A stretch of 64,000 bases of DNA from Fibrobacter sp. (GTDB taxonomy: Bacteria; Fibrobacterota; Fibrobacteria; Fibrobacterales; Fibrobacteraceae), in contig NZ_JAFZKX010000076.1 of NCBI RefSeq assembly GCF_017551775.1, forward strand, positions 1-64,000, given 5' to 3'. Below the pieces are notes generated by a model. It made no database searches and was not told the DNA's origin. It saw nothing but the letters and a program-made list of their open reading frames with translations. The position numbers and the translations under genes are program-made. Positions 40,179-43,471 of this stretch are shown one piece after another; the stretch's first letter is position 1, and each line of letters opens with the position of its first letter.

Positions 40179-40202
40179 GTCCGCCATACGGCGGGCTTTT
40201 TT
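40179..40202. terminator. Bidirectional terminator after tRNA-Pro
   Basis: GTCCGCC (40179-40185) and GGCGGGC (40190-40196) around ATAC, T-run right and A-run left. It serves tRNA-Pro and the minus-strand cyclase gene ending at 40226. Confidence 0.88.
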
Positions 40203-40225: not shown

Positions 40226-41953
40226 CTATTGGTTCTTCGCGGCCCGTTCGAGTTCGGCCGCCTTGTAGTCTTCTTCAGTGGTACGCGCGGGGTCCCAGAC
40301 GACGACCTTGTTTCGTCCGCTTTCCTTGCCCTCGTACAGGGCACGGTCCGCCATCTGGATGCTCCTGTCCACTCCGAGGGCGCTGTCGTATAGCGCGACG
40401 CCCAGCGTGATGGTCGCCTTGATGGAAAGCTTGCCGTAGGAGACGGTCGTCTCTTCGATGGTCTTGCGGAAGCGTTCTGCGACGGTCTTCGCGCCAATGA
40501 GGTCCGTTTCGGGGAGGAGCGTGAGGAATTCCTCGCCGCCGTACCTGGCGAGCACGTCGTACTTGCGCAGCAGGTTGCGGATGGTGCCGGAGACCTGCTT
40601 GAGCACTTCGTCGCCGCAGGCGTGCCCGTAGGTGTCGTTCACGTTCTTGAAGTGGTCGATGTCGATGAATATGAAGCAGAGCGGCTTCCTGGTGCGTGCT
40701 ATGCGCTGGATCTCGTTGTCGATGGTACGCAGCATGTCGCGGCGGTTGGGGAGCCCCGTGAGTTCGTCGGTCCTCGAAATCAGGTCGAGCTTCTTGTTCG
40801 CTTCCTCGAGTTCCTTCGTCCGTTCCCGCACTTCCTGTTCCAGCATCTCGCGATGAGCGTTGAGTTCCGCAATCTGTCGCTTGATGGTCCCGTGCATGAT
40901 GTTGAAGTGCTTCGCCAGGATGCCGATTTCGTCTTGCCTCTTGCCGAAGTCGATGTCTTCTGCCTCGATGTCGCCTTCGGAAATCTTGATGGTGTGGACG
41001 ATGAGCTTGGTCATGGGGAGCACGAGCTTGCGGTAGAACCAGACAGAAACGAGAAGTATCGCGATGAGGGCCGTGACGAGCATGACCTTGCTCACGAGCA
41101 GGAGTGAGGAAATCTGCTCGTCTATTTCTTCCTTGGGTTGCAGTGAGAGCAGGCCGATGTCGTAGATGGTATCGTAAACGTAGTTGGCGAGGTATTCCTG
41201 ACCATCGGTGAGTGTGAAGAACCTGATTTTCTTGATTTCTTCGCTTTTCGGATTGAAGTTCTTCACGCCGAGTTCCGAAATCTTGTGATTGTCGGCGAGC
41301 CACTTCTCGAGGTCGGGGTGGTAGATGATTTCGCCTTCGGAGTTGATGGCGATGTAGTAGCCCTTCTTGCCGACCTTGCTGTCGGAGAGGATTTTCCAGA
41401 GCCTCTGCGCGGAGAAACTGGCGACAAGGCTTCCGTTTCCCTTGGCGTTGTCGGCGACGACTGTGGCGAACGCGCGCTTGGGCCGCATGTTGTCGGGGTC
41501 GCGGTACCATCCCGAGATGTAGGGCCTGTGCGGAGTGATTTTCGTAAAGTCGATGGGATACTTGGTCGCCGTCGAGACGATCATGGTGTTGTCGCAGATG
41601 AGGCTGTCGTTGCGGTCGAAGAGGGAAATCTTTTCGCCCGAGATGAACAGCGGGGAGATGTTGTAGCTCTTCAGGTAGCCGGCCGCGATGGCCGGGTCCA
41701 TGCTCTTGATTTCGGATGTCTTCGCGAGCAGGGTGAGCTGGTTGCCGAACTGCTGCATCTCGTTGTGGAGGGCCGTGGACATCTGCTGCAGGTGGACCTT
41801 GTTGGCCTCGAAGGTCGATACGAGGTTCATCTGCGTATGGCGGTTCACGAAGTAGTACATGCCACCGATGGTGACGGCGGTCAGCGCACATAACAGTAGC
41901 AGGAGGCTCCTGACTATTATACTCTTGGAAAGCTTTAGGACTTTGTTGCTCAT
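40226..41953 (-). CDS. Membrane diguanylate cyclase with periplasmic sensor, HAMP and GGDEF
   Basis: 575 aa. Helix one (about 14-34), a periplasmic sensor of CACHE type (about 35-285), helix two (about 290-312), a HAMP domain and coiled coil (about 315-390), then the GGDEF domain. The active site is GGEEF (about 472-476), a functional variant. The inhibitory RxxD site is present as RKYD five residues upstream. So it should make c-di-GMP with product inhibition. It begins 9 bp after a tethered solute-binding protein on the same strand, suggesting ligand-controlled c-di-GMP signalling. Confidence 0.9.
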   Translation of the reverse strand: MSNKVLKLSKSIIVRSLLLLLCALTAVTIGGMYYFVNRHTQMNLVSTFEANKVHLQQMSTALHNEMQQFGNQLTLLAKTSEIKSMDPAIAAGYLKSYNISPLFISGEKISLFDRNDSLICDNTMIVSTATKYPIDFTKITPHRPYISGWYRDPDNMRPKRAFATVVADNAKGNGSLVASFSAQRLWKILSDSKVGKKGYYIAINSEGEIIYHPDLEKWLADNHKISELGVKNFNPKSEEIKKIRFFTLTDGQEYLANYVYDTIYDIGLLSLQPKEEIDEQISSLLLVSKVMLVTALIAILLVSVWFYRKLVLPMTKLIVHTIKISEGDIEAEDIDFGKRQDEIGILAKHFNIMHGTIKRQIAELNAHREMLEQEVRERTKELEEANKKLDLISRTDELTGLPNRRDMLRTIDNEIQRIARTRKPLCFIFIDIDHFKNVNDTYGHACGDEVLKQVSGTIRNLLRKYDVLARYGGEEFLTLLPETDLIGAKTVAERFRKTIEETTVSYGKLSIKATITLGVALYDSALGVDRSIQMADRALYEGKESGRNKVVVWDPARTTEEDYKAAELERAAKNQ

Positions 41954-41962
41954 AGCTCTAGC

Positions 41963-43471
41963 CTACCTCTTTTTCCTTTTGCGGGTATAGGAAAAAATGA
42001 AACCGAGAATGAGGACAACGAAGAATACATACGGGGTCGGATTGATGCCCTTGCTTTCGGGCTTCTTTTCTTGGTCTGTCTCTTGTTTTGCGGTGTTGGT
42101 CGTGACGATGGAATTTTTCCAGATTTCCTGGAATTCGGCGAAGGTCATGGCGTGCGTGGGCGTGTAGCCTAACTGGGCGTCGATGATGTCGGATTTCTCC
42201 TTGAAAATCCGGTACAGCTTTTCTTCGGAGTAGAGCGCGGGGATTTCGAGCAGTTCCCAGACGGCGCTGAACATGGAAACGAGCGTCTGTTCTATGGTTC
42301 CCCATTCGGGAAGCGCGGGGTAGGTCCTTCCGGTTGCGAGCAGGGCGACCAGATCCTTGTACGTCTCGTCTTCGGCCCAGGATTCGAGAACCTTCTTGGA
42401 TGCGGGCAGGAACCCGATTTGCTTGGTGTAGTCGTCGAGGCTTGCGTCTTCGGTCAAGAATAGCAGCAACTGTATGGCTTCCTTCTTGGTGCTCTTCGCG
42501 GGAATGGCGAGGTCCGAACCTCCGAGGAAGCTCACGCTGCCCGCCGTGCCTCTCGGAATGGGGAGAACCGTTACGCTGTCCTGCCCGATTCGGGCATCAG
42601 AAAGCCCTCCCTGCGAGCCGTGGATGCGCGTCTGCATCACGATTTCTGCGGTGCTCACGATGAAGGCGAATTCGCCGTTGTTGAACTGCTGCGCGATTTC
42701 TGCGGAATTGGACTGCAGCGATTCGGTGGATACGAGCGAATCCACGATGAAGGAAAGGTATTTGGCGATGCCTTCGAGCGTCGGCGCCGTAAGGATCTGC
42801 GAGTGCCACTTTCCGTTTTCGTCTTTTTCGACGAACCTGCCGCCGTAGCTCCATATCCAGGGAGCGAAATTGTGGGGTATGTTCCAGTCGCTCTTGCCCG
42901 GGAATGCGTAGCCGCGGATCTTGGCGCCGTAATCGAGCAGTTCCTTGCCTTCGTTCACCTTGCGGATGGCTTCGGAGAATCCCTTGTAGTCGCGCATGCT
43001 CTGGGGAGTTATCCCGTATTTCTTCATGATGCGCTTGTTGCCGAGCACGGGCCTCGCGTCGATAAACCAAGGGATCGCGTAGATGTTCGTGTCGGCATCG
43101 ATATGGGAGGTGTACCACGAAACGGGAACGAAACGTGTGGAGTCTATCTGGTCGATGTACTCGTTCAGGTTCTTGAGAACGCCGCGGGCCGCGAAGTAGG
43201 GAACCCACGTGCTGCCGAGCTGCAGTACGTCGGGGGTGTCTTCACCGGTCTCGAGCGTATTTGAAATGCGGTTCCACGCTTCGCCCCAGTCGAGCACTTT
43301 CACCTTTACCGGAATGTGCGTCTTGGCTGTGAAAACTTCGAGTTCCTGCTCGAGTTTCTGTTGGGGCGATGCCCCGTTTGGCATAATCCATATGTTAAGG
43401 GTATCAACCGCGAAAGCCTGCGTCAAGGCTATCACTGTAAACAGTGTAATTAATCTACACCTAAGCACCAT
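41963..43471 (-). CDS. Family-1-type extracellular solute-binding protein with C-terminal membrane anchor
   Basis: 502 aa with a signal peptide (about 1-22). The fold is a sugar-type periplasmic binding protein: WIMPNGASPQQKLEQELEVFTAKT near the start and PDVLQLGSTWVPYFAARGVLKNL. Unlike ABC-transporter binding proteins it ends in a polar linker, one hydrophobic helix (about 478-496) and a basic tail RKRKKR. No permease or ATPase gene is nearby. The diguanylate cyclase gene follows by 9 bp, so it may act as its ligand sensor; this is inference. Confidence 0.82.
   Translation of the reverse strand: MVLRCRLITLFTVIALTQAFAVDTLNIWIMPNGASPQQKLEQELEVFTAKTHIPVKVKVLDWGEAWNRISNTLETGEDTPDVLQLGSTWVPYFAARGVLKNLNEYIDQIDSTRFVPVSWYTSHIDADTNIYAIPWFIDARPVLGNKRIMKKYGITPQSMRDYKGFSEAIRKVNEGKELLDYGAKIRGYAFPGKSDWNIPHNFAPWIWSYGGRFVEKDENGKWHSQILTAPTLEGIAKYLSFIVDSLVSTESLQSNSAEIAQQFNNGEFAFIVSTAEIVMQTRIHGSQGGLSDARIGQDSVTVLPIPRGTAGSVSFLGGSDLAIPAKSTKKEAIQLLLFLTEDASLDDYTKQIGFLPASKKVLESWAEDETYKDLVALLATGRTYPALPEWGTIEQTLVSMFSAVWELLEIPALYSEEKLYRIFKEKSDIIDAQLGYTPTHAMTFAEFQEIWKNSIVTTNTAKQETDQEKKPESKGINPTPYVFFVVLILGFIFSYTRKRKKR

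Follow-up and report, generated by a model that had tools for sequence, protein, structure and literature searches.

A membrane-tethered, cellodextrin-type binding protein encoded beside a diguanylate cyclase in Fibrobacter: a conserved pair and candidate receptor

Introduction

What does a solute-binding protein (SBP) do when it carries a membrane anchor, has no transporter genes around it, and is encoded directly upstream of an enzyme predicted to make cyclic di-GMP (c-di-GMP)? The question is raised by a gene pair of a Fibrobacter sp. genome (RefSeq assembly GCF_017551775.1; 3.2 Mb, 98% complete), located within the first 64,000 nucleotides of contig NZ_JAFZKX010000076.1, the whole of which we refer to as the window. 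The upstream gene codes for a tethered binding protein, SBP1, and the downstream gene for a double-Cache-like (dCache-like)/HAMP/GGDEF diguanylate cyclase, DGC1. An initial annotation of the window proposed that the binding protein is a sensor which passes the state of its ligand, perhaps a sugar, to c-di-GMP production. We think it fairly probable that an SBP of an importer has indeed become the half that reads the ligand in a receptor of two proteins, one that sets c-di-GMP by the level of beta-gluco-oligosaccharides. The evidence lies in the conservation of the pair, the tether and relationships of SBP1, the search for permeases, and published data on Fibrobacter succinogenes.

Results

Conservation of the pair

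SBP1 lies directly upstream of DGC1 at all 70 loci opened in the genus Fibrobacter and six sister genera, an adjacency that is far beyond chance, and the pair is a conserved unit. Conservation was one of the checks that the initial annotation had proposed, and its outcome favours a sensor. The loci comprise 56 in 54 of 61 genus genomes, one in the genus genome G085, and 13 in the sister genera; in the 69 unbroken pairs the two genes are always on the same strand, with a gap of -4 to 48 nt. A search with the DGC1 sensor matches 59 of the 61 genus genomes: 54 have DGC1 (two of them twice), five have only DGC2, a cyclase of the same architecture described below, and the two without either are 80% and 71% complete. 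A sample of 150 genomes of the phylum yields 13 further strong DGC1 matches, in six other genera of the family, with an SBP gene upstream of each (13/13). The match coordinates of SBP and cyclase also abut in five further genus genomes (G088, G110, G130, G133 and G134), which are among those with a DGC1-like match whose loci were left unopened, the others being G136, G138, G154, G156 and G143 (fragments). The genomes that hold the pair twice are G013 (6% contaminated) and G001 (3% contaminated), and a single scan of genome contigs gave four loci in Fibrobacter and three weak matches in Clostridia.

At one locus (L065, in G029) the SBP1 gene is frame-broken and the neighbouring cyclase gene is open, which may reflect either a genuine loss or a fault in the assembly. 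An apparent lack of a cyclase beside the SBP at locus L039 was rejected, as a longer antisense open reading frame (ORF) had masked the cyclase that tblastn finds. We note that G117, a genus genome of 99% completeness, has no match to the SBP or to the cyclase sensor, and is a natural double-negative for comparison.

SBP1 is a tethered binding protein

SBP1 matches the Pfam families SBP_bac_8 (9e-27) and SBP_bac_1 (3e-24), and these matches and hydropathy agree with the initial description of a family-1-type binding protein ending in a linker, a membrane helix and a basic tail. All 69 unbroken SBP1 proteins have the hydrophobic helix at their C-terminus, as does the C-terminal part of the frame-broken copy, and three to six Lys or Arg residues are found among the last eight positions in all 69. 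Counted by alignment row, the helix is present in 70 of 71, the exception being the row for the N-terminal part of the broken gene at L065; in full, the 72 SBP1 rows are the 69 unbroken genes (one of which, L059, loses its start at a contig end), the two L065 pieces and the L066 fragment. The same helix ends ten of ten proteins of a second tethered group, SBP2, and none of the 16 SBPs of the transporter clade (readable ends), whereas a lipobox pattern occurs in one of 71 SBP1 rows and in 12 of those 16. A maximum-likelihood tree of 57 SBPs, built from 30 of 70 SBP1 rows with all SBP2 and transporter-clade rows, splits the tethered and transporter-clade forms at 99/95 support; L066, L085, L156 and L157 are flagged as long branches.

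A sortase or exosortase sorting signal was considered in place of a plain anchor and rejected, as the linker before the helix is variable and carries no motif in 34 homologues, and SBP1 has no match to NCBIfam at E 0.01. Also rejected was an SBP-receptor fusion in the 1387-aa ORF of L072 (G042): the SBP part starts deep inside the frame with its own lipoprotein-like signal, and the long N-terminal part was read by eye as a spurious in-frame extension. The closest named relatives of SBP1, at 88% and 86% identity, are those of L092 and L093, from metagenome-assembled genomes named Fibrobacter succinogenes.

The predicted ligand class

The best PDB matches of SBP1 are betaGlyBP of Thermus (7c63, 3.7e-61) and CbpB of Clostridium thermocellum (7x0i, 2.6e-53), with the next at 8e-19, and by sequence SBP1 belongs to this cellodextrin/beta-glucoside-binding cluster of SBPs. 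Of the 36 PDB sequences that match at E 0.001 or better none is named polyamine-binding, and a few have general names only. W62, W89 and D138 are each invariant in 70 of 70 SBP1 rows (the 69 unbroken proteins and L066), the last being Asp where betaGlyBP has Glu. Variants of betaGlyBP in the PDB carry Ala at both equivalent Trp positions and at the Glu (the Glu to Ala chain is 7c71), and because of these substitutions we regard the three as likely pocket residues. CbpB is reported to bind cellobiose to cellopentaose with dissociation constants of 0.56-1.9 uM and laminaribiose with one of 10.7 uM, its hinge moving by about 17 degrees (PMC9601137). SBP1 would bind beta-gluco-oligosaccharides, so that the sugar tentatively suggested at the outset is narrowed by homology to one predicted class.

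The cyclase DGC1

Pfam searches of DGC1 return dCache_1, HAMP (34.5 bits, cut-off 25) and GGDEF (156-159 bits), and no EAL domain. The GG[DE]EF active site, with an RxxD inhibitory site five residues upstream of it, is present in 82 of 82 cyclases examined, DGC1 included, much as the initial annotation had read them, and by these motifs DGC1 is a diguanylate cyclase with intact active and inhibitory sites. Hydrophobic stretches near residues 12-30 and 284-302 flank the sensor, which we call dCache-like as its dCache_1 score is under the Pfam cut-off. The structure model shows two alpha/beta lobes and a long stalk helix, the distal lobe at low confidence (predicted local distance difference test, pLDDT, about 35), and in a fold search with this model the GGDEF part matches 4zmu (Z 17), only the GGDEF being clear among the matches listed. 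We also note 14 GGDEF matches in the source genome and a single PilZ match, so that most c-di-GMP effectors are probably of other kinds.

Permeases, importers and the origin of SBP1

The initial annotation had seen no transporter genes, which is true of the neighbourhood, and had named ABC permease genes found elsewhere in a clear operon as one finding that would tell against a sensor; no sugar-type permease is found in the whole genome either. Its four BPD_transp_1 domains are all nearest to Opp/Dpp/microcin-C-type models and score below the curated cut-offs of those models, one of the Opp/Dpp-like permease sets adjoins an SBP_bac_5 protein of its own, and a MalF query gives no match in this 98%-complete assembly. 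A MalF/MalG-type importer partner for SBP1 was looked for and not found in the source genome, and the genome's two SBP_bac_1 matches are both tethered.

Across 111 genomes of the family the MalF query matches 25, of which 23 are in seven other genera and two, in the genus itself, are marginal (7e-4). In eight genomes of Fibrobacter's family an untethered SBP adjoins the MalF match (L148-L155), and five of the eight (G095, G097, G122, G128 and G131) also hold the tethered pair elsewhere in the genome. In a sister family, SBP homologues sit in gene sets with a MalK/UgpC-type ATPase, a MalF/UgpA-type permease and a GH1 beta-glucosidase (L068 by family searches, the others read by eye). Nine of the 16 transporter-clade SBPs have a permease neighbour by Pfam or MalF search (L068 and L148-L155) and three by eye (L067, L069 and L070), and no permease neighbour was seen for L071, L072, L074 and L075. 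The simplest history would be that an importer SBP was duplicated, tethered and paired with a cyclase, and that the importer was later lost in Fibrobacter.

Published data on Fibrobacter succinogenes

In F. succinogenes S85, c-di-GMP is reported to rise about 2.5-fold on cellulose relative to glucose; the GGDEF proteins found changed are FSU_0748, FSU_0222 and FSU_2692, and what conditions the GGDEF regulators of S85 respond to is, according to the authors, not known (PMC6851124). The same study describes an SBP, FSU_1047, that is 31.3% identical to CbpB and 1.25-fold up on cellulose, and reads it as part of a cellobiose/cellodextrin importer (PMC6851124); in cell envelopes of S85 it is reported only on microcrystalline cellulose, with a mass of 57.575 kDa, an isoelectric point (pI) of 7.77 and a grand average of hydropathy (GRAVY) of -0.218 (PMC4619616). 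The SBP1 homologue L054 is near-identical in these properties (57.47 kDa, pI 7.77, GRAVY -0.207), and the eight SBP2 proteins of the genus for which these values were calculated lie at pI 5.2-6.1 and have a higher GRAVY. As pI and GRAVY fit SBP1 better than the SBP2 of the genus, FSU_1047 is probably the SBP1 orthologue, judging from mass, pI and GRAVY. The pair is therefore offered as a concrete and conserved candidate input for the c-di-GMP rise on cellulose in F. succinogenes, and the proposal would reassign a protein, probably FSU_1047, that has until now been taken for a component of an importer.

Gene layout

The two ORFs of the initial annotation are as it gave them, on the minus strand and separated by nine base pairs, and the features of the locus are collected in Table 1. 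The gene upstream of the pair codes for a NUDIX protein and is divergently oriented, and downstream of DGC1 there are a terminator-like stem-loop and a tRNA-Pro gene on the opposite strand; with these flanks the pair looks like a two-gene, bicistronic operon, whose genes would be co-transcribed. The stem-loop is a consensus match only, the region scanned giving nine such matches where 4.9 are expected, and a pattern scan of the operon region found no promoter-like sites (1.9 expected).

Table 1. Positions in the window of SBP1, DGC1 and their predicted features.
Feature	Position	Strand	Length, basis or remark
SBP1, tethered solute-binding protein gene	41963..43471	-	502 aa; ORF, Pfam and PDB matches
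SBP1 N-terminal export signal	43409..43471	-	Hydropathy; hydrophobic, no lipobox Cys; signal end judged by eye
SBP1 W62 to W89, two likely pocket Trp (VLDWG, STWVP)	43205..43288	-	Alignment to betaGlyBP
SBP1 D138 (PWFID), aligned with Glu of betaGlyBP WFSELR	43058..43060	-	Alignment
SBP1 hydrophilic linker, residues 452-474	42050..42118	-	Variable among 34 aligned homologues
SBP1 C-terminal transmembrane helix (475-493) and basic tail (494-502)	41966..42049	-	Hydropathy
SBP1-DGC1 intergenic gap	41954..41962	-	9 bp
DGC1, dCache-like/HAMP/GGDEF diguanylate cyclase gene	40226..41953	-	575 aa; ORF and Pfam
DGC1 extracytoplasmic double-Cache-like sensor, residues 31-283, between two transmembrane helices	41105..41863	-	dCache_1, 32 bits
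DGC1 HAMP domain	40883..41041	-	Pfam, 34.5 bits
DGC1 GGDEF catalytic domain	40307..40771	-	156-159 bits
DGC1 RxxD inhibitory site (R463-D466) and GGEEF active site (472-476)	40526..40567	-	Motif reading
Terminator-like stem-loop (intrinsic type), 3' of the DGC1 gene	40181..40194	-	Pattern scan

DGC2, SBP2 and related modules

The DGC2 cyclases share the architecture of DGC1, and at equal GGDEF distance their sensors diverge more (1.26 versus 0.71), which fits either release from contact with an SBP or a new ligand. Sensor positions conserved in DGC1 and altered in DGC2 include K95, N122, P141, W186 and H212. A DUF3332 homologue is found near 12 of 12 DGC2 loci and 55 of 69 pair loci, and from this shared neighbourhood DGC2 may have arisen as a copied pair locus from which the SBP gene was lost.

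SBP2 is about 35% identical to SBP1 and in the source genome is encoded on contig C40 (L076, 4895-6526, minus strand), where a PBP4/amidase gene and an aroA-like gene (named by eye) flank it and there is no cyclase. Relative to SBP1 its pocket is altered, with H200 replaced by Gln in ten of ten rows, N201 changed and W66 replaced by Phe or Tyr, so its ligand may differ. At two loci of sister genera (L138 in g20 and L139 in g21) it is the SBP1-cyclase pair that is flanked by homologues of the aroA-like gene (59% in L138, 56% in L139) and of the PBP4/amidase gene (43% in L138, 41% in L139). In Fibrobacter this position is taken by SBP2, which hints that it was the ancestral locus. A split pair of SBP2 and DGC2 was rejected, as the source genome has SBP2 without DGC2, and G028 has DGC2 with a single SBP match.

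A related sensor is present in G040, from another family of the same class, where it is 33% identical over 302 query residues and lies in an 818-aa frame (L141, 2-2458, plus strand) that joins the dCache-like sensor family to HAMP, Hpt and CheA-like ATPase domains. G040 also holds an SBP that is 44% identical to SBP1 (L066) and is cut by a contig end, and from this genome it is possible that an SBP and a dCache-like sensor form a portable sensing module.

Discussion

Proposed mechanism and alternatives

In the two-protein receptor that we propose, SBP1 would be exported, anchored to the inner membrane through the helix at its C-terminus, and free to bind periplasmic beta-gluco-oligosaccharides of the cellobiose to cellopentaose class. 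Closure of SBP1 upon its ligand would alter the way it sits against the dCache-like domain of DGC1, and the signal would pass through the second transmembrane helix, the HAMP domain and a coiled coil to change the activity of the GGDEF dimer, with product inhibition at the RxxD site capping c-di-GMP. Ligand-loaded SBP1 would most likely activate the cyclase, a direction we prefer because c-di-GMP rises on cellulose. The tether would raise the local concentration of SBP1 and stop its diffusion, which would be useful if the protein served one receptor. The pair may have a role in fibre-associated life, in which SBP1 probably reports to the cell that the fibre beneath it can be digested.

Several observations weigh against this receptor. 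The structure model of SBP1 is poor and unusable (pLDDT 41), that of DGC1 is poor as well (pLDDT 61), and the dCache_1 match of DGC1 reaches only 32 bits (E 1e-7), under the gathering cut-off of 45, so the CACHE-type sensor of the initial annotation is likely but weak by sequence. Domains of the dCache type often bind their ligands directly. The pI of SBP1 proteins ranges widely, from 5.0 to 9.3, which makes the fit of FSU_1047 a weak test, and the correlation of SBP and sensor distances beyond phylogeny is modest (partial r 0.56, versus 0.45 for SBP and GGDEF), so that co-divergence only weakly favours a partnership of the two. At none of the 12 DGC2 loci opened (L099-L106 and L142-L145) does the sequence retrieved contain an SBP match, and the five genus genomes with DGC2 only have this cyclase family without the pair; an SBP is therefore not an absolute requirement for these cyclases. 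The sensor proposed by the initial annotation is supported in part, by the conservation of the pair and by the search for sugar-type permeases.

A cyclase of this architecture without an SBP neighbour also fits an alternative in which the two genes encode parallel sensors, the dCache-like domain binding a small ligand of its own and SBP1 being a separate periplasmic sugar-capturing protein, a buffer or the partner of something else, that never touches the cyclase. SpdE and STM1987 are dCache cyclases that respond to amino acids (PMC8846402). SBP2, moreover, is tethered and yet has no cyclase or other receptor gene next to it. We nevertheless regard such independence as unlikely, given the unbroken adjacency over 70 loci and the faster divergence of the sensor where the SBP is absent. 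In nearly all rows the DGC1 sensor also has Ser, Thr or Gly, rather than Arg, two residues before W149-Y150; we take an Arg at this position to be part of the amino-acid dCache motif, so the sensor lacks that part. Closer to our proposal is a receptor subunit with a different ligand, such as hemicellulose or laminarin oligosaccharides or an endogenous sugar of the cell envelope, which may repress the cyclase. The laminaribiose affinity of CbpB and the several linkages accepted by betaGlyBP (PMC9601137) leave room for this, as does the peptidoglycan-related PBP4/amidase gene beside the paralogous SBP2; against it, SBP1 keeps the pocket positions of cellodextrin binders, and it is on cellulose that c-di-GMP rises in S85 (PMC6851124), and we think another ligand improbable.

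The reading in print, which assigns FSU_1047 to cellobiose/cellodextrin import (PMC6851124), would make SBP1 an importer component that uses an Opp/Dpp-like permease or another transporter, with the cyclase co-transcribed for a related but separate purpose. It draws on the MalFGK-like operons in which related SBPs of sister lineages sit. We find it very unlikely for Fibrobacter, where the source genome has no MalF-type match and the only two matches of the genus among the family genomes are marginal, where one Opp/Dpp-like set is already served by its own SBP_bac_5 protein, and where SBP1 carries a tether found in none of the 16 transporter-clade relatives; the five genomes with both an importer-type SBP, by MalF match, and a separate tethered pair point the same way. 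Returning to the two-protein receptor, a fuller account would have a cellodextrin importer SBP duplicated, tethered and paired with a dCache-like cyclase before the genera split, with Fibrobacter losing the importer and keeping the sensor, c-di-GMP being set by soluble cellulose-digestion products in the periplasm, and the SBP with its dCache domain being a portable module, given the apparent CheA-like kinase fusion in another family; for this account taken whole we see roughly even chances.

Comparison with known systems

Receptors stimulated by SBPs include LuxP-LuxQ, TorT-TorS, ChvE-VirA and the maltose-binding protein with Tar, whose outputs are kinases or chemoreceptors, whereas the predicted output of SBP1-DGC1 is a diguanylate cyclase. 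Action of a liganded SBP on the extracytoplasmic domain of a receptor is described as a general mechanism (PMC9602780), and SBP-driven receptors, cyclases included, are reported to be widespread (PMC9602780, PMC11113362), so this kind of system is already known. The literature searched contained no transmembrane-tethered SBP of the cellodextrin type that has a plain cyclase as its partner. The closest solved relatives of SBP1, CbpB and betaGlyBP, share its likely pocket Trp residues and acidic position, but they belong to cellodextrin/beta-glucoside importers (PMC9601137), whereas SBP1 is tethered and no sugar-type permease was found for it.

Among c-di-GMP enzymes, SpdE and STM1987 resemble DGC1 in joining a dCache_1 sensor to a cyclase output, but they are listed as sensing amino acids through the dCache domain, and no SBP is mentioned for them in the available text of a 2022 census of c-di-GMP inputs (PMC8846402). 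RmcA resembles SBP1-DGC1 in feeding an SBP-fold input (SBP_bac_3) to a c-di-GMP enzyme, but there the SBP domain is within the enzyme, the ligand is arginine and the enzyme is listed as a phosphodiesterase (PMC8846402). In the portions of that census at hand, sugars enter c-di-GMP networks only via the phosphotransferase system, and SBP_bac_3 is said to be the only member of the PBP clan studied in them; the census does not name NspS at all, so its silence is weak evidence (PMC8846402).

The nearest parallel is NspS-MbaA of Vibrio cholerae, with a homologue in Sinorhizobium meliloti, where, as here, a transport-type SBP is encoded next to a membrane c-di-GMP enzyme, which in that system is controlled by ligand occupancy (PMC8967002, PMC9993111). 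NspS is a periplasmic polyamine binder and MbaA a bifunctional GGDEF-EAL protein, whereas SBP1 groups with cellodextrin binders and has a C-terminal transmembrane tether, and DGC1 has GGDEF only; as there is no EAL domain, the SBP is not of the polyamine type by its closest PDB matches and it is tethered, SBP1-DGC1 is not an NspS-MbaA system. By analogy, the pair may work as NspS-MbaA does with different parts, and if so it would show an uptake protein becoming a sensor within one bacterial family.

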